From Hygrocybe punicea (lineage: Eukaryota; Basidiomycota; Agaricomycetes; Agaricales; Hygrophoraceae): a stretch of DNA of 64,000 nt. The DNA is taken from NCBI GenBank assembly GCA_963556145.1, contig OY744467.1, positions 6,200,001 to 6,264,000 of the forward strand, written 5' to 3'. The notes below the pieces were generated by a model. That model had not been told where the DNA came from. It worked only from the letters and a program-made list of their open reading frames with translations, and did not search any database. This document shows positions 12,994-54,449 of this stretch, one piece after another. A program made the position numbers and the translations under genes. Each line of letters starts with the position of its first letter. Position 1 is the stretch's first letter.

Positions 12994-13319
12994 TAGTGTT
13001 GCCATAGTCCAGTTTGGAACCAATCTGAACCCAGTTCAAACCCAGTTCAAACCCCGAAGTGAACCCTAAGTTCAGTCTAAAGTTCAGCCAAGTGCTGAAC
13101 TGGACTGCAGGTTCAGTTTGCAGTTCCGGCGAGGCACAGACTTTCAAACCGGATTCAAACACAGTTCAAACTGCGAACCGTAATGTCTATATACCTATAT
13201 AGATACTCATTTAGATACTCATTTTTTGTATGAAGCCACATGAACTGGGGTCATGTGACCTTACAATTCACGTGAATTCGACTCAACAACAACAGCAATG
13301 AACAACAACAGCAAGACAG

Positions 13320-13368
13320 GTAAGTAATTAGTTTATTTCTTACTTTACTGACATTTTCTTACACAAAG
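13320..13368 (+). other. E1 intron 1 (49 bp, spliceosomal type)
   Basis: GTAAGT donor, branch-like TTACTGAC, AAAG acceptor. About 80% identical to E4 intron 1 at 42420-42466, although the surrounding exons are far less alike. Confidence 0.6.
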
Positions 13369-13484
13369 AAGCCCCTCACGGCCCATGCCCACACCCACAC
13401 CCACGCCTGGCCATGCCCATGCCCATGCCAAAACCATGCCAACGCCCACAACGGGAACCACGGACAATAGCGACAAAAGGATGC

Positions 13485-13512
13485 AGTGAGGAGTGGTGCG
13501 GCCACCCCCACT
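13485..13512 (+). other. E1 splice-donor hairpin
   Basis: AGTGAGGAGTGG and CCACCCCCACT can pair around a TGCGG-type loop. It sits 6 bases before the intron 2 donor. The same structure precedes a donor in E3, E4 and E6. Confidence 0.6.
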
Positions 13513-13518
13513 GATAAG

Positions 13519-13569
13519 GTATGTCATCTTTATTATATTTCATTGTTTATCTATACTTACCCCCCACAG
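13519..13569 (+). other. E1 intron 2 (51 bp)
   Basis: Donor GTATGT, pyrimidine/AT-rich middle, acceptor CCCCCCACAG. Corresponds in position to E4 intron 2. Confidence 0.55.
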
Positions 13570-13776
13570 CTCCATGATGCCCATGAGCGTGGACATGGCA
13601 GCAGCCGCATGGCAACCCCAACAGCAGTGGCAGCAGCCACAGCTGCAACAAAAATGGTGGCACCAACAACGGCAGCACCAACGGCAGCAGCAGCAGCAGC
13701 ATTGACAGCAGCAGCAGCAGCAGCGTCAACAGCAGCAGCAGCAGCAGTGTCGACAGCAGCAGCAGCAGCAGCATTG

Positions 13777-13813
<37 letters not shown>

Positions 13814-14028
13814 CAAATGGCGACAACAACAGCAGCAGCGCCAACAGCAGCAGTAGCAGCAGCAACAGCAACAGCAGCAGCAGCAGCAATGGTGACAGCA
13901 GCAGCAGCAGTGACAGTGGCAATGGCAGCAGTAGCAACAACAGCGCTGGCAGCGATGCAGCACCAACACAGCAACAGCAGCGACACAGCAAAACAAAGGT
14001 CCCCCCTTCCTCCCCACCCCTCCCAACT

Positions 14029-14079
14029 CCTTGCAACCCCAGGCCCACATCAATTGACATGGTGCTGTGGCTTGCGAGG
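14029..14079. repeat. CAATTG-centred palindrome, copy P1 (in E1)
   Basis: Imperfect palindrome with outer arms CCTTGCAA and TTGCGAGG and centre CAATTG at 14051-14056. Same layout as the other copies P2-P8. Confidence 0.75.
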
Positions 14080-14260
14080 AAATTTGAGGGTGGAGGAGGA
14101 CAGTTCACAGTCCAAACTGTATCCAGATGCAGACCGAACTGCATGGAATGGTCCCACGCGGTCCTGGTTCCAGTTCAGCAGAAGGGCTGAACTGAGGGTC
14201 CGGTTTTGAGTTCAGCCAAAAAGGCCAAAAACCAGACCAAACCGGACTTGGGCAACACTA

Positions 14261-16560
14261 ATTTGAATAGCACTTGACGTGCATAAATTTTGATGCAAGG
14301 GTGAGATAAGCTAAGAAGGCCAGCACAAAAGAGGTAAGGGTAATGGAGGGAGTGGTGGTAGTGGTGGACTACGCACTTTAGGTCACCTGGAAGAGTCTTG
14401 CAAGGTCGGGTGAGTTTGTAGATTCGTCGACAAGCGTGAATCATCCTTTTCTGCCACATATGGTTCATCATGGGGGTCTGAGCTGGGGGTCTGAGCTGCC
14501 AACAGCATCAAGAAACATGTCAACCTCACCCTGAGCAATACGATCAGCCCACTGAAGCTCTCCCTTGATACCATCGCCCATCTGCTTGCGTCAGACCAAA
14601 TTGGGGACCTTGGAATGGATAGCTTCCAGGTAACATAAAGCTGTCTGTAGGGTGCTTCCAGATGTGTGTGAGCGCTGGAGCACCTTGTGCACAAAGCCCT
14701 TGATCGGGACCAGATTACTGCAAGATTGGTTGCTTGATGCACTCTGGTCGCTGTTTGGTCAACTGGATAGGGATGTGGTGGGGGAGGTGAGAGATGGAGG
14801 TGAGACAGGAGAGCACTGTGTCAGTGGAGAGATCGGAGAAGGGAGTTGAGTATTTTGTGGGTGACAGAAACCATATGGGCAATACTGCATCGCCGGCCAA
14901 GGTGATGGTCTCCAAATCCTGGGATGACAGTAAGAAGACATTTGGGATATCTTGGGCAGGCCATATTTCGCATAGTGATTTGACTGTTTGATCTGCAACA
15001 TTGCCATTGAAATTAGCAAATTGCGTTGGGGCGGATATTTCGTGGATTGCAGAAATTGGACAAGAAAAGAAAAGAAAACTCACCAACCAATCCGAGGACA
15101 TTTATTCTTTTGAGAGTTGTGGAGTTGACTACATTTTGGTGTGGAAGAAAGAAGAACTTGCATTGGGGGATCAATTTCACATAGAGATGTGGTAGAGAGG
15201 GGTGAGGAGGAGGCAGAAGATGCTGGGGTATTCAAGTAAGACACCAGAAGCAACTGAGAGGGGAGAGGAAGGCAGAGTAGGGTGATTGCGAGGGGAGAGA
15301 TCGAGGGAGAGGGAGACGGATGAGACATACGGCAGAGGTAGAAGAACTCGGATGGCTGCAGGAAGGGTGGTCAATTTGGGACATCTTGTGGCTCGACTGG
15401 ATCGTTGTTTTTTCACCCTGCGGGGCCTGCGCTCAAGTTTTTGCTGGGAATTTTCATGAGTTCAACAAGGGATTTCGCTGGGGACAAGACACTCACAAGA
15501 CAGTCCTGGCAGCTCTCAGAACAATTGGTTGCCTAAATTGATCAAATTCGAAGCATGTTAGCGTTGTCAGGGATCCTCAGAATTCTCACCGCTCACTCCC
15601 GATTGTCATGCCGTTGTCCCAAGTTCCTGCTCTCTCTCTCTCTCTCTCTCTCTCTCCCCTCCTTCTCACACAGAAATTTTCAGCTCCAACCACCTCCTGT
15701 TGAGGTGGACAGGATCAAATAATGGTCAGGGGTGACTCTGAAGGCCATGACAGGTGAGTTTGTGTACCTTTCCCAATTAGAAGCCCTGTCATGGTGCAGG
15801 ACTTTGTTTGGCTGCTCTGAGTGTACACCCCCAAGGCGTGGGCCAGTGGGCCAGTCCTTTTTTTCCAGTCTCGCTCCCCCAGCTTGGTTTTGGGGGGGGA
15901 AGGAGAGTTTTTGTTATCCTGACTCGTGTTGTTGTTGAGTTGGTGCCTGTGTTGGGGCCTGTGCATGTGCGTTTAATGTGGGGGAGATCAACGAGATCCA
16001 CGATTGTAGGGTGTCTGGGGTCTCTGGTCGAGTTCGAGCCCTGACACTGGGTGCATAACCAAATATTATGCACAAAGATATTGAAATAATATTGATATAT
16101 TACTCTAAATAATATCATCATAACTGTCTGTCAAATATTGTGGGGACATTTAGAGTGTCTTCAATAATAATATGGGCGAAAAGAAGGTGAAAATACTTGA
16201 ATGACATTTGAAATAACAATCAAGATATCTTTTACATACAATTACAATAATATTTCAATAGTGCAATGAAGAATATTTTAAATTGGGCAGATGTGTGTGG
16301 AAGGGTGACATATGTGCAATTGACAAGAATTGAGACGTGATGTTTTTAAATGTTTTTATTATGATATGACATGGAAGATGTGATATATATTTACAGTATT
16401 GTGCACAAAAATGTTTATCATATTTGTTGGCAAAATATTTTAATTAAATGAAATGGATAGGACAGTGATCGGAAGAGTAGGCTAAATATGAGATGAGTCA
16501 AATGGAAGTATGCATATTAGGCAAGGGAAAATGTTAGAGAAGGCAACATCACAGAAGTGA
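14261..16560. other. Gene-poor stretch with right duplication copy and a CT microsatellite
   Basis: 14395-14660 is the right copy of the duplication listed at 12590. 15631-15653 is a (CT)n run. 14790-15320 has open frames on both strands but none with a domain I recognise or a convincing exon pattern. 16020-16040 contains a word resembling a tRNA B box, without a supporting A box or cloverleaf. 16050-16500 is AT-rich and featureless. Confidence 0.35.
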
Positions 16561-16599
16561 TCAACAGGTGGGAAAATATGAAAGACGCTGAAGAGGGAT

Positions 16600-17151
16600 A
16601 TAAGATGTCACGGAAGCAAGAGAGACATGTGGGAGATGACAAATATACACAAAAGACATGTGGGAGGTGCTGAAGATATATTTTGCAAGATGTATGAAGG
16701 ATGCAAAAGATGCATGAAATATGTGTGGAAGTCGCTAAAAATGTATGAAAGATGCCTGGAAGATGGAAGAAAAGCATGAGATATGCATGCGAGTTGCCAA
16801 AAGATGTACAAAAGATGCAAAAGATGCATGAACGATGTGCAGGAGGTGCCAAAGATGTACGAAAGATGCAAAAGATGAATGAAAGATGCGCGTGATGTGC
16901 CAAAGATCTACGAAAGATGCAAAAGATGCATGAAAAATGCACCAAAAATGCAAAAGATGCATGAAAGATGCGCGGGACGTGCCAAAGATGTACGAAAGAT
17001 GCAAAAGATGCATGAAAGATGCGTGGGAGGTGCCAAAGACGTATGAAAGATGCAACAGATGCATGAAAGATGCGCAAAAGATGCAAAAGATGCATGAAAG
17101 ATGCGTGGGACGTGCCAAAGATGTATGAAAGATGCAAAAGATGACTGAAAG
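16600..17151. repeat. 51-bp minisatellite, left block
   Basis: Tandem units of about 51 bases built from AAAGATGCATGAAAGATGCG and GTGCCAAAGATGTACG words, diverging towards the left end. Because 51 is a multiple of 3 and the unit lacks stops on the minus strand, every minus frame stays open (a 17-residue period such as SFMHLLHLSYIFGTS). These frames are taken as by-products. The array continues at 18508 on the far side of E2. Confidence 0.8.
17144..17151. repeat. Target-site duplication of E2 (ACTGAAAG)
   Basis: Identical 8-mer at 18500-18507. Confidence 0.85.
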
Positions 17152-18499
17152 TAGTGTTGCCATAGTTCGGTTCCGAACCTAGCCGAACCTGGTTCAAACC
17201 CCGAACCGAACCCAAGGTTCAGTCTAAGTTCAGCCAAGTGCTGAACCGGACCGCGGGTTCAGTTCCGGGTTTCAAGGCCCGCCGGATTTCCTGAACGGCT
17301 CCAAACCGCGTCCAAACTGCGAATGCAGCTATTTTTATGGTATTTATTTCATTTGTTTTTCGTATTTCTTGACTTACTATTTCGTGTTAAATGGTATCAT
17401 GTGACCGGCCGTGACCGTGTAGCTTTCACGCAACACAACATCAACACTCAACGCGAAGGCCAGTTTCAAGCTTTTCTTAACTTTACTAATGTCATTTGTG
17501 ACAGGGAACTCGACTGCGACCACATCGCGGCCACACCCATCTTGGCACAAGATGGATGCCAACGCCAACCCAATGCCAACGGACGCGCGACAGCTGCAAC
17601 ACCACCACCGCCACCACCACCACCACCAGCGGCGGCAACAGAAATGGGAACGGCTATGGCAACCAGGCAACGACGATGGCAACGGCCAGCAGCAGCAGCA
17701 ACAGCAGAAGCAGCAGCAGCAGCAATAGAAGCAGCAGCACTGGCAGCAACGGCAGCAGCAACAGAAGCAGCAGCGCCGGCAGCAACGGATGCGCGACAGC
17801 TGCAACACCACCACCACCACCACCACCACCACCACCAGCGGCGGCAACAACAATGGCAACGACAACCACGATGGCCAGCAGCAGCAGCAGCAGCAACGGC
17901 AATGGCAACAGCAGCGGCAGCAGCAACGGCCACAACAGCAGCGGCAGCAGTGGCAGCAGCAACGGCGACAGCAGCAGGAGCAGCGCCGGCAGCAGCAGCA
18001 ACGACAGCAGCAACGACGGCAGCAGTGATGGCAGCAGCAGCAACAGTGGCAACAGCGGCAACGGCGGCAACAGCAGCAATGCCACGGCAATGGCAGCAAC
18101 GCCACGGCAATGGCAGCAGCAGCAACAGCAGCAACAGCAGCAACGGCAGCAGCAGCAGCAGCAGCAGCAACAACGCCAACGGCCGCAGCAACAGCAGCAA
18201 CGCGACGGCAGCAGCAGCAGCAGCAGCACCGGACGGCTCCCCCGCAGCCCAACTACCTTGCGAAGTGTAGCGCCGTATCAATTGATACGTGCCTGCCATT
18301 CGCGAGGAGAACGGAGCTCACGGGGTGAGCCAACCTCGGTCTGGGTTCAGACGCGGTCTGAACCCAGACCGAACGCGGCGAGATGGTTCAGTGCCGTCCG
18401 GGTCCAGGTTTGGCCATGCACCAAACCGGACCCGAAGTTCAGTTTGCGATTCCGCCAAAAAGGCTCAGAACCGGACCGAACTGAACTTCGGCAACACTA
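17152..18499 (+). mobile_element. E2: hAT-like non-autonomous element (1348 bp) inside the minisatellite
   Basis: Begins TAGTGTTGCC, ends GGCAACACTA, flanked by ACTGAAAG on both sides. Subterminal GGTTC/GAACC words are like those of E1. The interior has CATGTGACC (about 17399), an intron acceptor-like end near 17504, about 650 bases of CAN/GCN trinucleotides, and palindrome P2 at 18256-18307. The insertion splits the 51-bp minisatellite, so it is younger than the array. Long frames on both strands are poly-Ala/Ser/Gln artefacts of the trinucleotides. Confidence 0.88.
18256..18307. repeat. CAATTG-centred palindrome, copy P2 (in E2)
   Basis: Outer arms CCTTGCGAA and TTCGCGAGG, inner GTATCAATTGATAC, centre 18279-18284. 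52 bp, symmetric about the centre. Confidence 0.8.
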
Positions 18500-18507
18500 A
18501 CTGAAAG

Positions 18508-18960
18508 ATGCGCGGGACATGCCAAAGATGTACGAAAGATGCAAAAGATGAATGAAAGATGCGCAGGACATGCCAAAGATGTACGAAAGATGCAAAAGAT
18601 GCATGAAAGATGCGCGGGATGTGTCAAAGATGTACGAAAGATGCAAAAGGTGAATTAAAGATGCTTGGGACGTGTCAAAGATGTACGAAAGATGCAAAAG
18701 ATGCATGAAAGATGTCGGAAATATGCAAAGGATGCATGACAGATGCGTTTGAGATCTTTGGCATCTTCCACTCATTTTTCATGCATGATCAATGGAAGAG
18801 GTGCATGCAAGCTGCATGGGCAACACCAAAGATGCACCACAGATGCAAAAGATGCACAGCAGATGCATGGGAGATGCCAAACATGTGCAAAAGATGTGTG
18901 TGCGAGATGCCAAAGATGTACATACAATGCCAAAGATGCATGAAAGATGGCATGCATGTT
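18508..18960. repeat. 51-bp minisatellite, right block
   Basis: Continuation of the array at 16600-17151 after the E2 insertion. Units become irregular beyond 18720. Confidence 0.75.
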
Positions 18961-19462
18961 GGACCTTGGGTACACCCTGGGGAGCCAAACAGAATAATTC
19001 TTTTTGAATAATCCATGAAATATTCAAACTTGCCATTGCATCAAAGCCACATCATTGTAGAAGCACACCCCATCATTCAAAAGGTTTGTATAGTGCTGGG
19101 AAGTAACTACATACATTGCTGGCCCCAGACCCAGATCAGACTAGGTTTCTCATAGAGTAATCTTTTGCTTTGCTTTGTCCCAACTGCACCTGCCTTCGAA
19201 ATCGTGCACTATCTAGGGCATCCCCACCCATAACTGGGGGCATCCCCCAAAATATCATCACCATAACAATGAAAAAGACTAAAAGTGTTCCATAAAACAT
19301 ACACTTTAACATGGATAACTGTTGCAATACTAACTGGATGTGTTGCCCAGGTATCAATTGCTTGTGTAAAAACGAGACAATCATGGATTATAAAATGACT
19401 AACATTATCACAAGCCAGAATAAATTTCACAGGGGCCTTCAAAAGTAAATATCAATTCACTA
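18961..19462. other. No gene recognised
   Basis: A minus-strand stretch at 19136-19442 could encode hydrophobic segments (FYGTLLVFFIVMVMIFWG), but frames do not join into a credible exon set. No repeat or RNA gene is seen. Confidence 0.3.
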
Positions 19463-20320
19463 GTGTGCAGAGGGACAATAAGATTTCCGCACTTGAAGAG
19501 GCACCAGTGACTCTTCAGCCAATGTTTGGGCCCTGGTCAGGCTCAGGGCTCCACAAGCATCCAGCTGTGGATTCTCTCCATCACCTTTATCTTCATCATG
19601 GGAGTCCGAGAGAAGTTTATTGTCAAAAAGCTATCACTATGTCAGCATTCTGCAAACTGGACATGGGGACACGTAGATGACAGACATTGCCACCGGGTGA
19701 AATACTTTGCATGATTTCCTTCAAAAATAAATATCAGATTGCGAGTGTAGTGCAAGACAGTCAGATTATACCTGTGCACAGAGGGACAATGGGCTTTCCG
19801 TTGCTTGAACAGCCACCGCTAACTCATCAGCCAACATGCAGCCCATGGTCTGGCTCGGGGCGCATGCATTCTGTGGATTTTCCTCATCGCCATTATCTTT
19901 GTCATGGAAGTCCAAGAGGAGTGTATCGTCCGAAATCTGTTGCTATATTAGTGATCTGTGGACATGAGACAGTGAGATATGGTGTGACAAACATTACCAC
20001 CCGAAATGCTTTCCATAAATTCCTCCGTGAGAGTCGTGCAAGAAAGAGTGTCAGATTGTACCTGTGCACAGAGGGATGATGGGCTTTCCAGTACTCGAAC
20101 AGGCGCCGATGACGCATCATCCAACGTTTGGACCGTGGTGGGGCTCGGGGCTCCATGAGGATTCTCTGGATTGTCTCCATCGCCTTTATCTCCGCCGTCA
20201 GTGTCTGAGAAGATTGTATCGTCTGAAGGCTATCAATATATTAGCAATGCGCAGACGCAGCGTGGTGATATATAGTGTGACAGACATTGCTATCGGCTGA
20301 GATCCTGTACATATATTCAC
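19463..20320 (-). repeat. Three degenerate tandem units of ~290 bp
   Basis: Units begin near 19463, 19775 and 20055. Each has GTGCA(C/G)AGAGGGA..., then a block near GGCTC(A/G)GGG, then TCTGTGGAT/TCTCTGGAT with CATC(A/G)CC(T/A)TTATCTT. Read on the minus strand, each unit offers an exon-like frame ending in variants of ESPSSLCTG, followed by a GTACAATCTGA word after CACAG. They may be duplicated exons of a minus-strand gene or a decayed tandem repeat. Confidence 0.55.
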
Positions 20321-20433
20321 CCTCACACGATTGGCGGTTCAAGCAAACTTCGGGAACCAGTGCTGTAAGCTGTCGGGAATGATAATGACGTATCCACTGC
20401 CGTTCACGACGGACATCTGTTGGTGCTCCATTC

Positions 20434-20806
20434 TTAAGACGCAGTATCAGGAATAGTGCAGAAGTTCAACTGACTGTCCATGAGCGTCCGCGTTGCGTCC
20501 AATTGTTCCTGAAAGTCTGCGAGAACAGCCTCCATGTGTACCTCACAGTCTGCCAGTCGATTATCCGTTGAAGTCTTTACAACAGGTAAGAATATTCACG
20601 CATATATATGTTATTGGTGTACATGCCTGCAGAAGTTGCATCGAGTGTATCTTCCTTTGGAAAGAATACAATTCATCCCGGACATCTTGCACCTCTTTTG
20701 TACTTTTGGCCCTGTCCTCTTCCAGCTGGTCTTGTACCTGAGTGAGGGTGGATTGGAAGCGGTCCACACATGTGCAGAAGTCGGTTAACAATTTCTCATG
20801 TTCCAT
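20434..20806 (-). CDS. Small coiled-coil protein, two exons (GC-AG intron)
   Basis: Minus-strand exon 20806-20627 begins MEHEKLLTDFCTCVDRFQ and contains heptad-like LTQVQDQLEED...VQDVRDELYSFQRKIHSMQLLQ. If the intron uses a GC donor (CAG|GCATGT) and the acceptor at 20575-20576, the frame continues in exon 20574-20434 with LADCEVHMEAVLADFQEQLD, giving about 106 residues and a TAA stop. A GT donor two bases on gives an immediate stop. No known domain. More upstream exons are possible, because an acceptor-like CAG lies just before the ATG. Confidence 0.5.
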
Positions 20807-21275: not shown

Positions 21276-21341
21276 GTGATTTTTTTATATGTATACCACA
21301 CTTGCCGGTGCGTTTTGCATCATACGCCCCCATTTCTCACT

Positions 21342-23505: not shown

Positions 23506-23524
23506 GCGGAACGGAATCTGTAAA

Positions 23525-25930: not shown

Positions 25931-25934
25931 TAGC

Positions 25935-28323: not shown

Positions 28324-28382
28324 TTGAGGCAGTTTGCAAAGATCAGCTGCCAAGTGAATCGACAGAGATTTATTGATTGGTC

Positions 28383-30356: not shown

Positions 30357-30395
30357 ATGAAGAACAACGTTAACGAATACTACAAGCAATGCCAC

Positions 30396-35678: not shown

Positions 35679-35872
35679 TAGTGATGGGGAAGTTCAGTTC
35701 GGTCCGGTTTTCGGCCTTTTTGTCCCAAACCGAAACCGAACGGTTCGGTTCCTACCAAAAAATCCCAAACCGAAACCGAAACCGACGTAAACGGTTTACG
35801 TCAGTTTGGTTTCGGTCCAGACGCGGTCTGAACCACGAACCGCGTGGGCTGGGGGCCCTCCCTCCCATCTGA

Positions 35873-35924
35873 CCTCGCAAGAGTGCTGCACACGTCAATC
35901 GACGTGGCTAGCCTCATTACGAGG
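35873..35924. repeat. CAATTG-type palindrome, copy P3 (in E3)
   Basis: Arms CCTCGCAA and TTACGAGG; centre CAATCG (one base off) at 35896-35901; 52 bp. Confidence 0.7.
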
Positions 35925-36289
35925 TGGGATTGGGGGTTGGTGGGCTGCACGGCCCTGTCCTAGCGAAACACACGCGTCAAACGCATGTGTTCCGCCTCGG
36001 CTGTTGTCGATTGGGTGTGGTGGTGGTGGTGGTGATGCCCCGACGCGTCAGACACGTTGTGCACGCGACAATGGGTGTGTTGGCCCTGCGTTGGTCCTGC
36101 GTTGGTTGTTTTCGGCGAGCGCGTGGTGGTGGCGTATGGGCCTCTCTGCATGGGTGTCCCGACGCGTCATGCGTGTTGACCCCGCGTTGGCCGCATTGGT
36201 GTTGCATGGTGGTGGTGGTGTTGTGCCGCGTTCCGTTATATACAAATAAAATCAATAAAAGAAAGAATAAAAATAACATACCACGAAGG

Positions 36290-36320
36290 AGCGGGGGTGG
36301 ATGCACCACCCCCCGCCGCT
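36290..36320 (-). other. E3 splice-donor hairpin
   Basis: AGCGGGGGTGG and CCACCCCCCG pair around ATGCA. A minus-strand donor GGTATGT follows 7 bases away at 36276-36282. Confidence 0.6.
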
Positions 36321-38427
36321 CATTCCACCTCTCTGACTCCCACTCCACCCTGTTCACGTTCGTTTGCGTGCACGTGTGTCTTGGACACGTTGTTGTTGGC
36401 GTCTGACGTGGCGGTCCTGGTGGTTGTAGCGGTCCTGGTGGTTGCGGCCATCGTGGTGGCAATCGTCGTCGTCGTCGTAGTGGTGGTGGTGGTGGCCGTG
36501 GTGGTAGTGGTGGTGATGGCCGTGGTGGCTGTTGACTGTAACTTGCTACTGTTAGTGTCGAATAAAAAAAATGAAAAAATAAACAAAGCATAGGTGGGCG
36601 GCAGGGAGTACCCTGCCACGTTTGGTCCACCTCGGGTGCTCCGTCGTCCTCGTTTGGCGTACGTTGTGGGCGTTCTTGGTGGTTGCAGAAGTGTCTTGGT
36701 GACTTTGGAAGTCAGCCAAGTGGCCGACTTGCGAATATCGGTTTGCGGTTCAAACTCAGTTTGAAACCGTTTCGGCCCGCGGCCAAATCTCCAAACCGGA
36801 GACCGAACCGTTCGGTCTCAGCCGAAATTTCCCAAACTGGGTTTGGGTCGGTCTGAGACCGAACTTCCCCAACACTAGTTTGAGGGCCTCGCTGCTGATT
36901 GGAATAGTGGGAAACTGACAGATGAAGTGCGGAGTAGGTAAGTGAAACATTGTTCTCGTATCAGTGTCTTCTGCTGAAGCCTCTTTGGTAGCAACGCGGA
37001 AAATTCAATGAGCAAGGTGGTGCAGAAGTTTGTCAAGGAATTGGAGGTGCAGATGGGGGCGAAGGGGCTTGTCTTGGTGGGTTGGAAAGATAGGACAGGC
37101 AATGCTCAAACCATGAAGTAATATTTCACCTACCACACAATATTTGAACTCACCCATCATTGTGGGTAGATTTGAATCCCAAAATGTTCAAGGGGATATT
37201 TTTTCGAGGAGCAAAACTTTCCAGGACGAAGTGATGAAACCTTGGAATGAGTGGGTGTTTGACGAATATGGTATGTTAAAAGTACCATCAACCATGACAT
37301 CTCTGAACATATATTAGATGAGCACAGTGATGGAGCAGAAACCAATGTCGACAAGGGCAAGGGTCCCTGCCTGCCCAGGAAGGAAAACGATAAGAGTGTA
37401 CCATTGGTCCTGCAAGTCGACGAATTTGGTGCACCTGTCCTCCCTGACACAAAGGGGATATCACTGCTGAAGAAGAAGGATGTGTTTAGGTCATTTGTGA
37501 CAATGTCCTACCGTAAGTTGAACAGAATGAATGGAATAAAACAAGACTCACCGTATGTTTGCAGGCCAATTTACGAACAACCAGAATGCGACAGTTCCTT
37601 GGTTGAGGATAAGAGACTCCCTGGGGGAATTCATAGATGCTGAATATCTCCCCGATGGACAGCAGATGATGGAGCCCACAAAGATGAAGAAGGACCAGCT
37701 GAAGCTGGTCTTCGACCAATGGGAGAACCGGCAGGCATCAGGGTTGGTGGCCCTCAAATTCAAGTCTGCGAGGGCTTCAGATGCGGAGAATCTGCTGAAG
37801 AACAAAAAGGCCAAGAAAAGGAGATATGTGGATGTTTCCGATGATGACAACAACTCGGACAACGAGGCTGGACCTTCAAAACGGATTGAGTATGGGGCCA
37901 CAGGCAAATTGCCGAATCGAGCATAAGTGACATGCATGATCTGCCTGATGTTCATTTTCATTTGTTTATCCAGTTGTTTAGTCCAGCTGCAGTCAGCCCA
38001 GACAAGGAGGCAAGGTTTTGAATTTTTGCAAACCTTGTCCACGAGCCCAGAATACCTGAGTTTGGTGAAATTTTGCTATGAGCATTATGTGAGTAAAACA
38101 TGTCAAGAATATGTGTGGAAATGAATAACAAGGGACAGGAATGGGAGGTCAATAGTCCTGACAATGCCTGGATGTCATGGAGTTACCCCGGCCAATTTCT
38201 GCCCCCTGCTTTCCATGATGGCAATTCCTTGGAAGAGATCATGTTATGGATGGAGACCTTGCGATATCCTGATGATATTTCGATTGTTCTCTTGGTCATT
38301 GGACTGGCTTTACGAGAATTTGCAGCATCTCACTTCAACAAAGGTAACTTTGACTCTACCCAGGGGATTCCGGAATATGTGTGGGGATCTTCATACATGA
38401 CGAAACATGCTGACCAGTTGGTGGCGC

Positions 38428-40664: not shown

Positions 40665-41090
40665 GTAATAAATAAACATCCCACCCCATCTCGGCCCATC
40701 CAATGCCAGTGGGAAAGAAATATCCCCCCCCATCTAGGCCCATCCAATGCAATCGGGGAATAAATATCCCACCCCATCTTGGCCCATCCAATGCCAGTGG
40801 AAAATCAATATCTCACCCCATGTCGGCCTATCCACTGCTATGGGTCCAAAAATATCTCACCCCATTTGGGCCCACCCAATGCTCTTGGGAAATCAATAGC
40901 CTACCTAAACTCGGCCCATCTAATTCTAGTGGGAAATCATTATTTCTAACTTTCTGGGCCCATGCAATGTGAAGGGAAAAGAATATCTCAGCTCATCTCG
41001 ACCCATCCAATCCAATAGGTCTGGATATTATCTTGGCCCATCTCGGCCCATCCACTGGGATTGGACCTTTAGCACATGGGCTCCCCCACT
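40665..41090. repeat. ~46-bp minisatellite (GGCCCATCCAATGC units)
   Basis: Eight to nine units with the core CATCTCGGCCCATCCAATGC followed by AGTGGGAAA and AATATC(C/T)CACCC, increasingly diverged to the right. Confidence 0.75.
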
Positions 41091-41123
41091 GTTACTGGAC
41101 AAGATATGCTGCAAGGGCTCTAG

Positions 41124-41155
41124 GAGTGGGGGTGGATGCACCACCCCCCGCTGCT
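41124..41155 (-). other. Splice-donor hairpin of the 41-kb copy
   Basis: Same structure as in E3, but the donor that should follow has been lost. Confidence 0.55.
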
Positions 41156-41342
41156 TGTTCCATCATGTAGACTCCCACTCCACCCCATTTGCACACATCT
41201 TGGACATGTTTGATGTGGCCATTGTTGGCATCCGAAGTGGCTGTCCTGGTGGTTGTGGCCATCGTGGTGGCGATCATCATCATTGTAGTGGTAGTGGTGG
41301 TGGTGGTGGTGATGGTGGTGATGGTGGTGGTGGTGCATCAAC

Positions 41343-41397
41343 CTGTAATTTGTTAAAGTGTTAGTTAAGTTTGAATAAATAAAAATGAAACACATAC
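41343..41397 (-). other. Intron 1 of the 41-kb copy (55 bp)
   Basis: Minus strand: donor GTATGTG, branch-like CTTAACTAAC, acceptor ATTACAG. Corresponds to the E3 segment whose donor has decayed. Confidence 0.6.
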
Positions 41398-41683
41398 GTG
41401 GGTGGCAGGGAGTACCCCACCACCCATTTTGTCGACCTCAGGTGCTCCATTGTCCTCATTTGGCATACCTCAGGGTTGTTGTTGGTGGGGGTTGGTGACT
41501 TTGGGTGACTTTCGAAGTCAGCCAAGTAACCAATTTGGGACTGTCGGTTTGCGGTTCAAACTGAGTTTGAAACCATTTCGGCCTGCGGCCAAATCTCCCA
41601 AACTGAGACCAAACGGTTCAGTCTCCGCTAGAAATTCCCAAACCAGGTTTGGGTCAGTCTGAGACTAAACTTCCCCAACACTA

Positions 41684-41719
41684 GCCACGTCAATTGATGT
41701 GTGCAGCTGTCTCGCGAGG
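41684..41719. repeat. CAATTG-centred palindrome, half copy P4
   Basis: Right arm and centre are intact (CAATTG at 41691-41696, CGAGG at 41715-41719). The left arm is cut after GCCACGT by the preceding element terminus. Confidence 0.75.
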
Positions 41720-41893
41720 TGGATACCCGACAGTCTTGATTTAGACCAAGTTTGGACCAAACCAAACCGATGTAAACGATTTACATTGGTTTTGGTTTTG
41801 GTTCCAGGATTTTTGGCAGGAACTGAACAGTTCGGTCTCAGTTTGGGGCAAAAAGACCCAAAACCAGACCGAACCGAACTTCCCCAACACTAA

Positions 41894-42119: not shown

Positions 42120-42127
42120 CCATATCT
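42120..42127. repeat. Target-site duplication of E4 (CCATATCT)
   Basis: Identical 8-mer at 44808-44815. Confidence 0.85.
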
Positions 42128-42419
42128 TAGTGATGCCGAAGTTCGGTTCAGAACCAATCCGAACCCGGTTTGAACCACGAACCGAACCAGAATTTCGGTT
42201 CAGTTTGCGGTTCTGGCACTGACATGCGGTTCAAACTGCGTTCAAACGTGGTTCAAACCGCAAACCATAATATATATTTACCTACGTAGATACTCCTTTA
42301 GATACTCAAATTTTCACATTTTTTTGTATGCAGTCACGTGAACTTAGGTCATGTGACCTTAAACATACACACGCAACTCTTCAATTTCGACTCAACACTA
42401 ATGTTACTCAACAACCATA

Positions 42420-42466
42420 GTAAGTAATGACTTTATTTCATATTTTACTGACATTTTCTTACATAG
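42420..42466 (+). other. E4 intron 1 (47 bp)
   Basis: GTAAGT donor, TTTTACTGAC branch region, ACATAG acceptor. Aligns closely with E1 intron 1. Confidence 0.6.
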
Positions 42467-42700
42467 AACAGCCCCACGGGGCCCACCTTGACCACATAAA
42501 TAAGGCGCCCGCGGTCAACTTCACCCAACAACCTCCCTCGCATTCCAACGCGAGTCGGAGTGAATCAATTGCAGCAGCGGCAGCAGCAACAGCAGTGGCA
42601 ACACCACCACCACCACCAATGCCACCACCCCAACGACAACGACAACGATGGCCAAATGACCCCCAGCAACCGCAACTGCAACCACAGCAGCAGCAACCGC

Positions 42701-44107
42701 TGTCATGACCCCAAGTGTTTTTGGGTGTAATGTCATGGGTTTACCATCGGACCACGGACTTAGATATTTAAGTGCAACACTATGGATGCACACCTACACT
42801 CATTAGTACCCATTCTATGCCTTTCCACATTACGCATGCTAGTGAACAGACACAAATAGCATATATGCTTACCTTTATATCATTTATTATGGCTTCACTA
42901 GTAATGCCCAGACCTAGCCGTTTATATATGGTGCACAGAGGCACATCCCCCACTCATTAGTATTTACTATATATTTCTCTGTATTGCGCGTGCAAGGAGA
43001 CAAGCCCAACTAGCATTGTTACCTATATTAGCAGTAATGGATTGATTACAAATCTTGTTTACTTGTATTGATCAAAAGCGGCTCAGCTAGATAATGGGAA
43101 GTGATTAGATAAGATGTGAACAAGAGGATGATAAGATAATGATAAGATAGGATGCATCAGAGAGTGATTGTGATATTCTGCTTACATAAAGACAATGGTC
43201 TATTGTTCTGAGCAGTCTATTGTTCTAAACAGTCCAAATGGAGATAGAGCCCATTGTTCACAGCCTCTTTGATGCCATCCATTGTTCTCATGACTCAGTC
43301 CTATTGTTCTCACTTTCCCATTGTTCTCAGTCCCCCATTGTTCTCCAACAGTATAAATAGGGCCCCCAAATTCCAGTAGTCAGTAGGATTTCCCCCCTCA
43401 CCACTCAGTAGTCACTCTCAGTTGGGTTCACACAGTGTGATCCCCCATTCTCTTAGTACTAGTAGTTACTCATTGTAGTAGCTAGTGCTTGCAATCCAGT
43501 CTAGTTCACTCTTATTCTATCATTCTCTGAGTTCCCCTTGTCATCAAGGAGAATTCACCCAGTTCACTCAGTTCAATCAATTCATTAGTCAGCATTAGTC
43601 AGCTAGATACATTTCTAAGGTTAAGGTTTCATCCTAAATAGATACACTTCTAAGGTTAAGGTTTCAATCCTAAACAAAACAGAGTATTCAAAAGGTATTA
43701 AAGATATCCCTGAACTAGTAGCCAATGTGCGTTTGAAGCTTCGGATTTAAGTCAGATATTATAATACCCAGAGATACTCTTGATTGAATAGGCCCTGTAG
43801 CCAAAACCATCCATATTCAACTGGTGAATATTGTTATCAGTATTCATTAGTTCATATTTTTATATTCCAGTAGTGAATATTCTTGTTTTCAGTACATCAC
43901 ACACCCAATTGCTATTCATACCTACTCAAAGTCTCAATTCTTAATTGAAGAGACCTCACTATTACATTCTATTGATTCATATAGTACATATACCCACAAA
44001 CCCCTTCCTGATAGGTTATTTAGATATTAAAAACCCACGAACAACAAGAAGGTACCTGAACAAAGTCAACTCCGGTAATTCTTGGTGAAACAAACATTCA
44101 CATAACA
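42701..44107. mobile_element. Long solo LTR (1407 bp) inside E4
   Basis: Starts TGTCATGACCCC and ends ACATAACA, with CCGC directly on both sides (42697-42700 and 44108-44111). Removing it restores an uninterrupted CAACCGCAACGAC repeat of the host element. It contains a promoter-like GTATAAATAGG near 43350 and short internal duplications (CACTCATTAGTA words at about 42795 and 42952; AAGGTTAAGGTTTCA twice near 43618-43665). No coding capacity. 1.4 kb is long for a fungal LTR, so a different kind of non-coding insert remains possible. Confidence 0.6.
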
Positions 44108-44225
44108 CCGCAACGACAACAACAGCGACAACCGCAATGACAATGACAACGGCAGCAGCAACGGCAACGGCAATGGCAATGGCAACAACCACGCACAACA
44201 AAAACGCGGAAAGCGAGAGAACTGG

Positions 44226-44253
44226 CCGGGAGAGTGGTGTGCCCACCCCCGGT
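44226..44253 (+). other. E4 splice-donor hairpin
   Basis: CCGGGAGAGTGG and CCACCCCCGG pair. The donor GTAAGT follows 6 bases later. Confidence 0.6.
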
Positions 44254-44259
44254 CGCCAG

Positions 44260-44304
44260 GTAAGTCTTTTTTCGTTTGCTGTCGAATTTTCCCCACCACC
44301 GCAG
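44260..44304 (+). other. E4 intron 2 (45 bp)
   Basis: Donor CAG|GTAAGT, T-rich middle, acceptor CACCGCAG. Confidence 0.55.
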
Positions 44305-44426
44305 ATAGGCACCGTCCACATGTTCGACCATCCCACCTCCATTCGCCCGCCAATGCACCATACCAGGCCCGAAGACGCCCCAGCCTGAGGATGCCCCAGC
44401 CCAAAGACGCCCCCAACCCCATTCCA

Positions 44427-44478
44427 CCTCACAAACACACGGTGACGCGTCAATTGACGTGCGTCCGGTATCGCAAGG
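44427..44478. repeat. CAATTG-centred palindrome, copy P5 (in E4)
   Basis: Centre GCGTCAATTGACGTGC; outer arms CCTCACAA and TCGCAAGG, less perfect. Confidence 0.65.
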
Positions 44479-44579
44479 TCAAATAGGTGGTGAGGGGGTG
44501 AGGGGGCTAGCAGCATCCCCATCTCCTCTCCTCCCCGAGTTCCTACAACCACCCCACCTCCCATCCCACCTCCTGCTTC

Positions 44580-44631
44580 CCTCGTGAAACCCAGCGCCAC
44601 ATCAATTGATGTGTGCCTGGTCTTCACGAGG
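44580..44631. repeat. CAATTG-centred palindrome, copy P6 (in E4)
   Basis: Outer arms CCTCGTGAA and TTCACGAGG are perfect complements; inner CACATCAATTGATGTG; centre 44603-44608; 52 bp. Confidence 0.8.
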
Positions 44632-44889
44632 AGATTTGGAGGTTGGTTCGCGGTTCGAACCGCGTTGGAACGCAGACCGAATGCGTTGAAACCGTTCGAC
44701 GTGGTTCCAGTTCCAGTTCGGCATTTGGCTGAACCAAACCAACGGTTTCGGTTCCGGTTTTCCAAAAAAGGTGAAAAACCAGACCGAACCGAACTTCGGC
44801 AACACTACCATATCTAACTAGTTACAAATTGATATAAAAGGAAATATATTATTCAAATCTTTTTTAAACTTGCAACTTTTCACTGGGCC

Positions 44890-45709
44890 TTTACAGCCAT
44901 TTGTATAAATGATGGCACATTTTGAAAATTTTTGAATCAATTTAATAATATGGACTTGGACAAATTTTCTGTGCTCAATCTTGTATCTCATGAAATACTG
45001 CATGGATTGACATCATTACAGAGGGAAAGTTGTACCATTTTCTAAGGGCTATCAGCTCCTATAATTACATTTGGACTATATTTAGTGTATGATGAATGGT
45101 GGATGAAATAAAGAGGTAAAGTAGTATTTTTGACACCCAATATGATATTGTAAAATTATGGTGTCAAAAGAGCTCCTATGAAGAAGATTGTAGGGAGAAA
45201 ATTGTTCAGTTTTTCAAGGGCTAGAAGCTCATATACCATATTTTTCTTCATCTTTGTTTTTTGATCCCATAATTATGATTCATATGATATTTCAAGCCCA
45301 ATACAAACAAATATGATACAGAGTAATAGTTGACTCAAAGGACAAAAGTGAAGAAGAATACGGTATATGAGCTTCTAGCCCTTGAAAAACTGAACAATTT
45401 TCTCCCTACAATCTTCTTCATAGGAGCTCTTTTGACACCATAATTTTACAATATCATATTGGGCGTCAAAAATACTACTTTACCTCTTTATTTCATCCAC
45501 CATTCATCATACACTAAATATAGTCCAAATGTAATTACAGGAGCTGATAGCCCTTAGAAAATGGTACAACTTTCCCTCTGTAACCATGTCAATCCATGCA
45601 GTATTTCATGAGATACAAGATTGAGCACAGAAAATTTGTCAAAGTCCATATTATTCAATTGATTCAAAATTTTTCAAAATGTGCCATCATTTATACAAAC
45701 GGCTGTAAA
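44890..45709. mobile_element. Foldback element: 361-bp inverted arms, 98-bp spacer
   Basis: 44890-45250 and 45349-45709 are inverted copies with roughly 90% or better identity by eye. The outer ends read TTTACAGCC and GGCTGTAAA. The spacer is AT-rich. No coding capacity and no obvious target duplication. As RNA it would form a very long hairpin, a possible substrate for Dicer. Confidence 0.8.
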
Positions 45710-45917
45710 AATCCTATTTTTATAGTTAGCTGCCGTACAACTCTTGCCAAGAGACTTTTCGGCGAGCCACAATCGCAATGTACAATATAACCCGTCTCTC
45801 CTCATCACTTGATGATTGGAGGATTCTGTTCTTTGTATGTAGTCTCCTCTTGTGCGAATCTTCCACCTCGGCTTCCACAAGCCCAGACCACATCAACATG
45901 CTCCCACCAACGCGGCC

Positions 45918-47540: not shown

Positions 47541-47705
47541 AGCGGCGGGTCAGAAGCAAAGACGGTTATCCACAAAGTTCCCACACTTTGGAAATGATTA
47601 GTAATCACAATCTAGCTCAGTGACTTTTCAATGAGAACCACATTACCTACCGTACGGTAGTACATGTTTGCGTTTGGGCTTGGCCAATATTAAATAATGG
47701 CAGTT

Positions 47706-50654: not shown

Positions 50655-50997
50655 GGAACCTTTGTGGCAACGTAAGCCGTAATCTGGGAGGGTCTGACCT
50701 TATATAGGATGTATTCACCTGCCCAAAGAATCAGGTCATAGGCATTGCTATCAATGCAGAATATTTTTGAAGGTCGTCGACTCACCTTGGACGAAGCAAC
50801 GGAGTCGTCAAACGATATAATTGGCGGTTGGGATCGAATGTCTTTCTAGGTCGTCAGTACAGTACAAGAAAAAATTGCAAGCAAACACAAAAGTCCAGAA
50901 CCACGTCATCAATCTAGATACTTGGAGCATGACCTGAGCCTGAGTGAAAATGAAGGGGATATCGGGCTCGATACTGATGTCTGTTGAGGAAAAAATA

Positions 50998-50998
50998 A

Positions 50999-51033
<35 letters not shown>

Positions 51034-51047
51034 AATAAAATAAAATT
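50998..51047. repeat. (TAAA)n microsatellite
   Basis: About eleven TAAA units followed by TAAAA variants. Confidence 0.85.
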
Positions 51048-51091
51048 GAATTGGATAAAATCGGTATCTGTACATCAGCAAATAACATTGG

Positions 51092-51742
51092 CTAGTCAAC
51101 ATCCCAGCAAGGCTTATTGGGTCTCTTTGAGTCCCTACCACTCTTGCCACAATCCCTATACTGATCCAAACACAACCTTACCTCCTTTCTTTTGTTACAT
51201 GATTCTTTTCCACATTTTTTGCATGTTTGGATCTTTCTTTTTTGGGATTTGGCTGTGCTGGGGTAGGAAGGGAAGCCAATGTCTGCTTGTGTGATAGGGA
51301 GTTGAGTTGGCTGTGAATTTTTGGGAGACAGACATGGCTTGGTGTTGTGGCAACACTGAGTGAGAGGATGAGTTTCCAGTTGCACTATCAGCAGAAATTT
51401 CCAGAAGTCCTTTTCCAACAAAATGCTGTCTGAGTGGTTGCTGTGGGGCATTTGGAACCTCCAGAACATGACATGGATCAAGAATTGCAATGTGAAGTGA
51501 TGCACAAGCATCTGAGGACATTGAGAGGGATTGTCAAATATTAATGCTTGTCTTCCACTCTCCATAGAGGTGTGGTGCTGTTCTGTCAGCTGATAGGCAG
51601 TGTCAGTATCATACAATGAGGTTATGAATGCAGAAATGCAGACACACCTTATATGATATATGCTGATGATTCCATACCCATACTGCTTCACTGCAGTTTG
51701 GCTGGGCAGTGGGGTTAAAGGTGAGATTGGTGAACATCAGCT
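51092..51742 (-). pseudogene. Transposon-derived gene, 3' part with Cys-rich tail, split by E5
   Basis: Minus-strand frame 51691-51092 ends with a cysteine-rich basic tail (KIQTCKKCGKESCNKRKEV, LCLDQYRDCGKSG, RPNKPCWDVD) of the kind found at the C terminus of agaricomycete transposase-like proteins. Upstream, across element E5, the frame continues from about 54475: joining 54450 to 51742 puts LEEQALSCQLMFTNLTFNPT in one phase. An intron with donor GTATGG lies near 51680. Family not named; no catalytic motif visible. Confidence 0.45.
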
Positions 51743-51750
51743 GACAAGAC
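51743..51750. repeat. Target-site duplication of E5 (GACAAGAC)
   Basis: Identical 8-mer at 54442-54449. Confidence 0.85.
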
Positions 51751-52705
51751 TAGTGATGGTCAGGTTCGGTTCAGTTCAGTTCAGGCCAAAAAAATCTGAA
51801 CCTTGAACTGAACCTGAGGTTCGGTTCAGCTCATATGCTGAACCTTGAACTGAACCTTTGGTTCAGGTTCAGATAGGTTCAGTTCAGGTTCAGGCCAGGC
51901 TGAACCTGAACTGAACCTGTGAAAATACAAGTATACTAGCTAATCAATTTTCTCAATCCAAATTTTTCCTTTATTTGCTACCACTCTACATTGTTGTTGT
52001 GCTAATGGTTTGACTCTTCAATTACATGTACTGTGTCCATGTTCACTGTGAATGAATCAATAGAATCTTGTGTTAGATGTGTCTGAAGCACAGTAAGCAT
52101 GAAATATCCTGGACAACTGTTCAGATGGTCATTGCAAATGTTTTGCAGTATTTTAACAGGAAGGAAAGACCTTGCAATCAGTATAACTGAATCACACAAC
52201 ATGGCATCCTAGGCTGAATTTCAACTTTACATTTTAAAATATATTTAAGTTTGCAAATATTCATGTTACAGAAGCACTAATTGCAACCGTATAAACTCTA
52301 ACTAATCTAGATTCTGTTATTAATGGTGCTGAAATTTCAAGTCAGTAAATAGTTGGACCAAAACTAAGTCTCTACTCAGCAGAAATTAGACTAATATGTG
52401 AAAGATTAGGTTCAGGTTTGAACCAGTTTGAACCAGGTTCACAAGATTCCGTCCTTGACTGAACCTTGAACTGAACCTAAGGTTCAGTGTGACGGTGAGT
52501 GTGGTTGTAGATCCGAAAGGGAATCTACTGTGCAGGGTGATCAGCTAAGAAGTGATCAGAGGAGTTTAGTGTCTATGTAGTCTAGTCAATCCAACCCGAA
52601 TGCAGGGTTCCGGATCAGATGGGAAGTGAAGGGAGTGGAGTACAAAGACTAATATGGAGACGATACGAAGCGAGGACTAAAAGTGTAGAACTGAATCGGG
52701 ATAAT

Positions 52706-52713
52706 AAGATGTA
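52706..52713. repeat. Target-site duplication of E6 (AAGATGTA)
   Basis: Identical 8-mer at 53924-53931. Confidence 0.85.
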
Positions 52714-52906
52714 TAGTGATGTGCACGGCCCGGCTTGGCCCAAAAGCCCCGGCTTTGGCCCGGCCCAAGAGGGCTCCGGCTTTCTGGAAGCTCAAGCCAA
52801 GCCGTGGCTGACGGCTCCGGCCTGGCCCCGGCTTGGCTTGGCCCAGGCCGCGGCTCTTGCATATGGTCGTACCAGGTCTGCAAGCTCCACTCACAACCTC
52901 ACCATC

Positions 52907-52959
52907 CCTCGTGAACATTGCATGTCCGTCAATTGGTGTGACGGTGTGTGTTCACGAGG
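52907..52959. repeat. CAATTG-centred palindrome, copy P7 (in E6)
   Basis: Outer arms CCTCGTGAAC and GTTCACGAGG pair perfectly; centre CAATTG at 52930-52935. Confidence 0.8.
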
Positions 52960-53023
52960 CAAAATGGAGGCGCAGGTAAAGTATGCAGGTAAAGTACCCG
53001 CGCAGGTTCCAACCTCGAATTCA

Positions 53024-53076
53024 CCTCGCGTGGATCGCGCCAACATCAATTGACGTTGCGGTGTCCACACGCGAGG
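53024..53076. repeat. CAATTG-centred palindrome, copy P8 (in E6)
   Basis: Outer arms CCTCGCGTG and CACGCGAGG; inner AACATCAATTGACGTT; centre 53047-53052. Confidence 0.8.
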
Positions 53077-53569
53077 TGTTTGACTCCTCCTCGCCGGCCC
53101 TGACGCATGGTCCTCGTCGTCCTCGTCATCCTCTGATCCCACGACCTCGTTGCCCTCATCTGCCGCCCCTTCCACCACAGTTCTGTTTTTCCTTGACTGA
53201 AAGGATGGTCCTGATTATTCATGATGAGATCCACTGAAAGCCCTTGCCACCCTGCAGCCTGTCATGGTTTTCTGACAGCTGATCGCGAAAGTGTTGTCGG
53301 CGTTACTGCCACAGCCTGCCGCCGGCACTGCAGCAAGTTCGCGATGAACACGCTCTCGTAACGTTTACGGGCGGCAGGCGGCACCGAGTGTTTGTGCGTG
53401 AGCGCAGGAGCGCTGCTCATGCTCGTCCATGATGTGGTGGCCATGCTGATGCTGAACATGGAGGAATGGTCGGAAGTGGTTGCGGAAATGAGTGACGTTC
53501 GCACAGAATGTAGAGTCGTAGGTTTTAGAAACATAGAAACATATGAAAAAATAACTACATACCTAGCGC

Positions 53570-53600
53570 AGCGGGGGTGGATGCACCACTCCCCTGCTGC
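53570..53600 (-). other. E6 splice-donor hairpin
   Basis: AGCGGGGGTGG and CCACTCCCCTGCT pair around ATGCA. A minus-strand GGTATGT donor lies just to the left. Confidence 0.6.
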
Positions 53601-54449
53601 TCTCCTTTCGTCCTCTGTTGGCCGTTGTTGCAGTTGTGTCAGCGTGACCGTGACGGCAGCATGTATAAAGACATCAATAACAAAAAGAAAAAGAAAAAGG
53701 GTCGAGAATGGCATACCTGCAATTGCCGATGCTGGTTGACCCACTGTAGGTATAATTTACCTTATATCAAAAGCCCCGGCCTGAGGGCCCGGCTCCGGCT
53801 TTTCAGGACTCAAGCCGGGCCAAAAGCCGTCACAGGCCGTCACCATTGGCCCGGCTTGGCCCGGCCCATTCGGGGCCGGCTTTGGCTGGCCCACGGCTTG
53901 AAGCCGGGCCTTGCACATCACTAAAGATGTAATATGATGGGATGCAATGTGATACGGTGTAATATGATATGGTGGGATATGATATGGTGTAGTATAAGGG
54001 TACATCTTTTATACTACTGGGAGTGATCCTGTGCTGTAGTAACTATGTACTACAAGCGAAGGCTGTAACTGATAGGAGTGGAGTGGAGCGGAGTATAGGA
54101 GGAATGGTGCTATGTACTAAGTAACGGGAAACGAAGATATATCATATGTAACTATATACGTAGTGATTCCGGGTCGTTAGAGACATTGCATCTTGAGTAT
54201 GAACGATTCCGGAGCGGAATCCGGAGCGGAATCGATGGAAAGGACCGGAATCGGGCAGAATCGATGATACCTGAATGGGAATGGATGGGGACGAAGTGTG
54301 ATATGAAGAGGATTCGGGTCCAGACGGCCCGGAGCCTCTACATCGGTTCAGGCATTACCCTGAACCTTGAACTGAACTTAGGTTCGGTTCATGTAGGTTC
54401 AGGTTCGAACCCAGGTTCAGAACCGAACTGTACCATCACTAGACAAGAC

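Follow-up and report, generated by a model that had tools for sequence, protein, structure and literature searches.

A putative spliced non-coding cassette common to hAT-like non-autonomous elements with different ends in Hygrocybe punicea

A 64,000-nucleotide (nt) stretch of the Hygrocybe punicea genome (contig OY744467.1, positions 6,200,001 to 6,264,000; hereafter the window) carries a group of short hAT-like elements with a common interior, which we call the cassette, made up of intron signals, a hairpin at a splice donor (the donor hairpin) and one or more palindromes. The same cassette is found behind at least eight end families of hAT-like miniature inverted-repeat transposable elements (MITEs), a class whose interiors are usually regarded as filler. 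From sequence comparison, we assign a probability of about 0.5 to the reading that the cassette is a shared, host-facing, probably spliced non-coding unit inside non-autonomous elements of the hAT superfamily. An initial annotation of the window had described the elements and their plan; its observations largely hold and apply more broadly than reported, and its interpretation is partly supported.

Six TAGTG...CACTA elements with perfect 8-bp duplications were found in the 64-kb window by a search for such end pairs (the duplication being a requirement of that search). They are given below with their target-site duplications (TSDs), together with a rearranged copy near 41 kb.

12994-14260, + strand: E1, a hAT-like non-autonomous element with the cassette, TSD ATTTGAAT
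17152-18499, + strand: E2, of an abundant subfamily, no donor hairpin, TSD ACTGAAAG
35679-36877, - strand: E3, TSD GTTTGAGG
41050-41892, - strand: the 41-kb copy, rearranged, outer limit approximate, 5' part of the cassette reaching 41683
42128-44807, + strand: E4, with a nested insert of ~1.4 kb, TSD CCATATCT
51751-54441: E5, without the cassette, host of the nested E6, TSD GACAAGAC
52714-53923, - strand: E6, nested in E5, with GGCCCGGCTT arrays, TSD AAGATGTA

With the E4 insert discounted, the elements compared, in the window and elsewhere in the genome, are 0.86-1.42 kb long, encode no transposase and have many copies, as MITEs do. A donor hairpin and at least one palindrome are present in E1, E3, E4, E6 and the 41-kb copy, while E2 has only a palindrome and E5 lacks both motifs. 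Both motifs and intron 1 also stand in the 41-kb copy, which has no bounded end pair; its 3' end piece (41684-41892) is inverted, the reverse complement matching the left end of E3, and the inversion join cuts one palindrome arm. The E4 insert (42701 to about 44107, ~1.4 kb, TG...CA) resembles a solo long terminal repeat, and its start recurs in another locus, L078. The initial annotation's identification of hAT-like non-autonomous elements is supported. Of the copies to which it assigned GGTTC-type arrays, E1, E2 and E4 have GGTTC, but the arrays of E6 are GGCCCGGCTT.

On the sense strand, the order of parts is terminal inverted repeat (TIR) and array, predicted intron 1, T-poor exon, donor hairpin, predicted intron 2, palindrome(s), and array and TIR. 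The modules in the window are as follows.

13320-13368, + strand: E1 intron 1 (GTAAGT...TACTGAC...AAAG), with a similar intron in E4 (repeat D18)
13479-13518, + strand: E1 donor hairpin, ending at the splice donor
13519-13569, + strand: E1 intron 2 (GTATGT...CACAG), in which no branch motif of the CTRAY type was found
13667-13981, + strand: E1 CAG/CAN-rich stretch, 3' of intron 2
14029-14079, + strand: E1 palindrome hairpin
18256-18307, + strand: E2 palindrome hairpin
35873-35924, - strand: E3 palindrome hairpin with a TCGATTGA core
36276-36321, - strand: E3 donor hairpin with GTATGT donor, intron-2 acceptor lost
41123-41156, - strand: core of the 41-kb donor hairpin, no GTRNGT donor found
41343-41397, - strand: 41-kb intron 1 (GTATGT...CTAAC...TTACAG)
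42420-42466, + strand: E4 intron 1
44224-44259, + strand: E4 donor hairpin
44260-44304, + strand: E4 intron 2, no CTRAY-type branch motif found
44427-44478, + strand: E4 palindrome 1, a weak hairpin
44580-44631, + strand: E4 palindrome 2
52907-52959, - strand: E6 palindrome b
53024-53076, - strand: E6 palindrome a
53557-53601, - strand: E6 donor hairpin and GTATGT donor

Intron 1 measures 47-55 nt in E4, E1 and the 41-kb copy. The 80 nt 5' of the hairpin contain 3-16% T in 19 copies, compared with 26-28% on the two strands of the window and 38-47% in the introns of E1 and E4; by eye, T is not enriched in introns of the GTACGTCCCC type. The donor hairpin combines a core (GGTGG-TGCRY-CCACC) with an outer stem, and the splice donor follows 22-29 nt after the start of the core and 7-14 nt after its end. 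A GTRNGT donor is missing from at least three other hairpins, those of the 41-kb copy, L075 and L083. A CTRAY-type branch motif is present in intron 2 in 17 of 20 rows (19 places). The palindromes are ~52 nt long, with one to several per element and a nearly fixed half length of 25-29 nt, and the last of them lies 136-194 nt from the right end in 13 measured elements (about 320 nt, by eye, in L009). In the window, CAATTG is at the centre of one palindrome each in E1, E2 and the 41-kb copy and of two each in E4 and E6; the E3 core is CGATTG. The common order and orientation, the near absence of likeness in bulk sequence between subfamilies, the missing hairpin of E2 and the position of the E1 CAN block 3' of intron 2 had all been noted in the initial annotation and were found again here.

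Its list of modules needs correction for some copies. In E3, the intron-1 donor is lost (CTATGC, versus GTATGT in the 41-kb copy), as is the intron-2 acceptor (AACGG, versus AACAG in a sister copy), and E6 has a donor-like GTATGC and no clear intron-1 acceptor. The corresponding donor position of E2 reads GCCAGT in the window copy; since it reads GTCAGT in five of seven other copies (the remaining two being L008, with GTTAGT, and L074, which differs), a potential donor for intron 1 exists in most E2 copies. A second GC-rich, hairpin-like stretch of the GGGTACTCCCTGCC type lies directly 5' of the intron-1 donor position in E3 (36590-36620) and the 41-kb copy (41395-41425).

The initial annotation's eight palindromes, seven of which contain CAATTG, and its five donor hairpins (E1, E3, E4, E6 and the 41-kb copy) are all present, and sets of 100 shuffles of the window gave no match, against five hairpins and seven palindrome half-sites in the real sequence (in E2, E4, E6 and the 41-kb copy; the half-site pattern misses E1 and E3). 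Across the genome (92.2 Mb, 42 contigs), in which introns and element types have a basidiomycete appearance, the half-site, TCAATTGA followed 10-18 nt later by CGCGAGG, has 2484 matches on both strands and its reversed pattern none. The pattern for full palindromes (CCTCGYGA...TCAATTGA...CGAGGT) has 1489 strand hits, with many sites counted on each strand, and a control of 0, and the hairpin core followed by AGGTRYGT within 30 nt occurs 384 times, with 0 for the control pattern. The first 201 bases of E2 have at least 40 scored matches, itself included, at 96-100% identity, from 780 candidates. Among the 37 donor hairpins listed along the first 4.43 Mb of contig C1, 18 have a strict palindrome within 1.3 kb, downstream in 18 of 18 cases and upstream in none (binomial p about 8e-6, with related copies that are not independent); the other 19 have none within that distance.

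We fetched 23 palindrome places along C1 (L009, L010, L011, L013, L019, L020, L021, L026, L030, L034, L036 and L073-L084), a non-random set from which palindromes resembling relatives of E2, L013, L021 or L078 were left out. The expectation in the initial annotation that such motif matches would lie between duplicated ends holds at 13 of the 23, which stand between hAT-like ends with an 8-bp duplication (7 of 8 bases matching in L083). At L077 (840-2260) there is an inverted duplication with two donor hairpins, four TCAATTGA palindromes and no recognisable hAT ends; L019 and L084 look by eye like longer repetitive elements that contain a single palindrome and differ in their end sequences, and L020 carries the same half-site.

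The plan extends beyond the family defined in the window by TAGTG...CACTA ends, the same interior standing behind at least eight kinds of ends:

TAGTG[AT]TGCC, to which the TAGTGCTRCC of L079 and L080 is close
TAGTGNTGGG, in E3
TAGTGATGTG, in E6
TA[AG]GGCATGTCAC, in L010
TA[AG]GGCACNGCACGGG, in L013 and L036
TAAGGCCCTCCACGGG, in L030
TAGTGTATTGCACGGG, in L034 and L083
TAGGGTNTAGCACGGG, in the L071 MITE and L073
TAGGCAATGGCACGGATAC, in L074

The subterminal repeats also differ between end families (GGTTC, GGCCCGGCTT, GGGTACGGG and GGATAC). In BLAST comparisons, families with the same array match near their ends too, whereas those with different arrays share little outside the cassette, within which the common pieces are 31-390 bp long and about 77-97% identical (for example 85% over 390 bp for L013 and L021, 83% over 151 bp for E2 and L010, and 78% over 386 bp for L030 and L074). 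Because the ends of cassette-bearing elements differ, different transposases are probable, and it appears as if one passenger unit is common to elements probably moved by different enzymes.

hAT ends are of the TA[AG]NG type with short TIRs, and the end types TAGTG, TAAGG, TAGGG and TAGGC fit this, one end of L034 reading TAGTT. The genome contains 152 matches to the hAT dimerisation domain PF05699, one of them in L072 (E 2e-16), and four autonomous copies were delimited, L085 and L086 having been picked at hAT-domain matches:

L071, 3753-7078: TAGTGTTGCC ends and GGTTC arrays like those of E1, E2 and E4, duplication GTCTGACG
L072, 3662-6928: TAGTGTTGCC ends and GGTTC arrays like those of E1, E2 and E4, duplication GTACGCTA
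L085, 139-3497: TAGGGTATAACACGGG ends, duplication AAAGACGC
L086, 129-3430: TAGGCAATGACACGGG ends, duplication GTTGCGAT

Their open reading frames appear to be split by introns. L071 and L072 match the MITEs on the left in about the outer 130 bp, with matches of 21-29 bp in the array as far as base 174, and on the right over 24-160 bp; otherwise only low-complexity stretches match. Neither the TCAATTGA palindrome nor the hairpin core was found inside any of the four, L086 containing one lone GCACCAC, and a further hAT type with other ends (L069 and L070) also has no cassette motif inside. Ends, duplications and partner transposases (the latter for three end types) therefore support hAT membership. 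L071/L072, L085 and L086 provide a cassette-free transposase source for three kinds of ends (partners of the other families were not sought). That the cassette is a remnant of an autonomous transposon's own gene or untranslated regions is hardly credible and was rejected: the ends are in common, yet the interiors do not match and the motifs are absent from all four copies, which represent three end types.

In both structures, the arms pair better with their own partners than with swapped ones. Simple clustering sorts the outer stems of the donor hairpin into 14 types; paired with their own arms they fold at -19.5 kcal/mol on average, versus -16.5 (standard deviation (sd) 0.36) with swapped arms (59 sequences), and with one sequence per type at -19.5 versus -16.1 (sd 0.78). 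When the conserved blocks are equalised in 39 palindromes, the values are -30.9 with own halves versus -26.2 (sd 0.70) with swapped halves, and for 22 type representatives -29.4 versus -25.4 (sd 0.81). In each of these four comparisons, 0 of 5000 were as low. Since own halves surpass swapped ones with the blocks equalised, the variable palindrome spacers are complementary to their own partners. RNA tolerates G.U pairs but not A.C pairs, while on DNA the two are equivalent. Donor-stem mispairs outside CpG comprise 16 G.U and 4 A.C, a G.U share of 0.80 versus 0.46 (sd 0.06) for swapped arms, and this excess points to the donor hairpin acting as an RNA stem on the splice-donor strand, although the numbers are small and related copies are not independent.

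No conserved protein is seen in the cassette. Depending on the copy, ATG frames run through the hairpin core in any of the three frames, and intron 2 would fall in every phase because the distance from core start to donor varies from 22 to 29 nt. A captured host gene, in which a hAT element would carry a decayed fragment, with exons and introns, of some host protein gene (Pack-hAT), is accordingly very improbable. Intron signals and long open frames speak for such an origin, as does a GEWCxH-like reading of the hairpin that is stop-free up to the donor in 16 of 17 donor-bearing copies; however, the three frames are almost all open, which is what T-poor sequence would lead one to expect, and the ATG frames enter the hairpin in different frames. 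A protein-coding exon with a GEWCxH motif was dropped on the last of these grounds. A known RNA family was likewise rejected: Rfam covariance models gave no match at the gathering cut-off in the window and none at E up to 1 in six loci.

Several results weigh against a conserved, spliced RNA unit. E5 combines TAGTG/CACTA ends and GGTTCAG arrays with a perfect 8-bp duplication but contains no cassette; a 737-bp element in L049 (2297-3033) has E5-like ends and neither palindrome nor cassette; and the abundant E2 subfamily lacks the donor hairpin. In L010 and L074, the intron-2 branch motif has no clear acceptor AG close behind it. Ten of the 23 fetched places have no recognisable ends with a duplication: three (L075, L078 and L081) appear by eye to be truncated, one (L077) is a large inverted duplication, and the other six (L011, L019, L020, L076, L082 and L084) show no recognisable duplicated end pair. 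Partner matches are thin for two end types, the ends of L085 matching three MITEs at 73-77% over a short 75-136 bp, and those of L086 giving no BLAST match to the MITE set, with similarity in the first ~16 bases only. Mispairs outside CpG in 34 sense-oriented palindromes comprise 7 G.U and 19 A.C, a G.U share of 0.27 versus 0.41 (sd 0.045) for swapped halves; the outer stems of 24 palindromes, in all contexts, have 7 G.U and 6 A.C, and CpG sites in 67 type-1 donor stems, uninformative in this respect, have 18 of each. Given this A.C lean and these equal counts, RNA selection is not evident in the palindromes, which more likely act as DNA than as RNA. Lastly, the substitution-rate comparison that the initial annotation named as a possible refutation speaks against constraint within the young E2 family. 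Change rates in seven copies are 0.82% in the palindrome, 0.73% in the 5' flank and 0.85% in the exon, and in eight copies 0.96%, 0.71% and 0.29%; changes in clean columns are mostly of CpG type, and the palindrome rate is not below the rest. Module constraint in E2 was rejected as an alignment artefact of an ill-fitting copy (L060) and misaligned repeats, which vanished with clean columns in seven or eight copies. Module conservation in six close pairs is mixed.

These observations bear on two other explanations. In one, a credible minority reading, the cassette is a DNA-level module whose palindromes and hairpin bind dimeric host proteins such as transcription or chromatin factors, with any RNA a by-product. 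The nearly fixed palindrome half length, the symmetry of the conserved blocks CCTCGCGAA and TCAATTGA and the lack of G.U bias among sense-strand palindrome mispairs fit it, but a dimer has no need of pairing between the spacers, which are complementary beyond swapped controls, and a donor hairpin whose core ends shortly before a splice donor and whose stem is G.U-biased speaks against it, as does the strict order and orientation with the introns where testable. The other, which we consider unlikely, dispenses with function altogether: ectopic recombination or gap repair would have carried an old interior from one MITE to another, with palindromes renewed by template switching and their arms complementary for that reason. 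Pieces of the interior are indeed common to different end families, and constraint is absent inside E2. A perfect palindrome at C1:2374776 also has one half in common with an asymmetric palindrome at C1:1052498, as half-duplication predicts; this suggests that halves can be copied, so that part of the arm complementarity may be mutational. Against this, the 14 types of donor stem and 22 types of palindrome keep their size despite their different sequences, all 18 testable cases preserve the order, the right-end distance stays within 136-194 nt in the 13 measured elements, the interior was not seen in four autonomous copies, and a G.U bias in donor stems is unexpected from template switching. 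Persistence and order across otherwise dissimilar end families, together with arm covariation, argue for selection, and on balance we favour the shared, probably spliced unit.

Other features of the window lie outside the cassette. The insertion site of E2 (16690-18867) is a tandem array of AAAGATGCATG-type units with periods of 31, 51 and 133. Between 38425 and 40095, ~1.4 kb is enclosed by 136-bp direct repeats that are 99% identical, resembling a terminal-repeat retrotransposon in miniature, with relatives by eye in L010 and L081. A long inverted repeat with arms of a few hundred bases lies just 3' of E4 (44850-45720), and the start of L034 is similar by eye. No tRNA genes were found in the window.

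The cassette elements resemble several known systems in part. Central domains of short interspersed nuclear elements (SINEs), namely CORE, Deu and V, stand as one domain of unexplained function behind different heads and tails, and are like the cassette in being shared across different ends; SINEs, however, are retroelements, whereas the elements here are DNA transposons. Introners and introner-like elements are non-autonomous and carry splice sites such that the element itself is the intron. In the cassette elements, by contrast, introns and exons are both internal (the E1 donors lie 326 and 525 bases from its left end), and the element ends are not the splice sites. The closest precedent found is that of the coral CMITEs, MITE families with different ends whose interior, of unknown origin, is better conserved than the ends and was not found in the autonomous partner, according to the available part of the report (PMC2872659). 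CMITEs are piggyBac-like, with TTAA duplications, CC[C/T]T ends, a length of about 100 bp and a 75-bp interior, and that part mentions no introns or palindrome arrays (PMC2872659); the fungal elements are hAT-like, with 8-bp duplications, TA...TA ends, a length of ~1 kb, splice signals and structured modules. The mushroom hATs MarorhAT-4/-10/-11/-12 of Marasmius oreades likewise comprise an autonomous copy and short non-autonomous relatives with common ends, but the latter (597-631 bp) lack a long internal section, and the accessible text mentions no shared spliced or hairpin cassette (PMC9674265). The basidiomycete repeat megB1, compared by description only, was set aside, being described in the part available as Alu-like, present in many fungi and located in ribosomal DNA spacers (PMC10627285). 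In searches of open-licence PMC papers we recognised no description of the cassette plan, so that the initial annotation's claim of no described family stands, within those searches, for the details of the cassette; the general idea of an interior better conserved than its ends across MITE families had been described for the coral CMITEs (available part of PMC2872659).

Under the favoured reading of a shared host-facing unit, an autonomous hAT with matching ends could move each end family in trans, and the cassette would be a T-poor non-coding transcription unit not derived from hAT transposases. A promoter in the left end would drive transcription, the T-poor exons would be spliced, with the donor hairpin acting as RNA at the second donor, and the palindromes would act as DNA sites near the 3' end. 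Because end families with different transposases have only the host in common, the cassette would work on the host side and in cis, transcription and splicing keeping the copy active and accessible to any hAT transposase. Transcription, splicing, a host-side effect and selection are all what we infer from these patterns. In its most specific form, which we offer tentatively and think rather improbable as it stands, at least eight hAT end families of one fungus have acquired a single twice-spliced structured non-coding RNA unit and have retained it for the help that it gives to any copy in this host, irrespective of the transposase that moves the copy; the unit would be the DNA-transposon equivalent of SINE central domains. 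If this is true, non-autonomous elements can carry a common host-facing function in a module absent from the autonomous copies examined, and the old question of why a few MITE families do so well would become directly testable.

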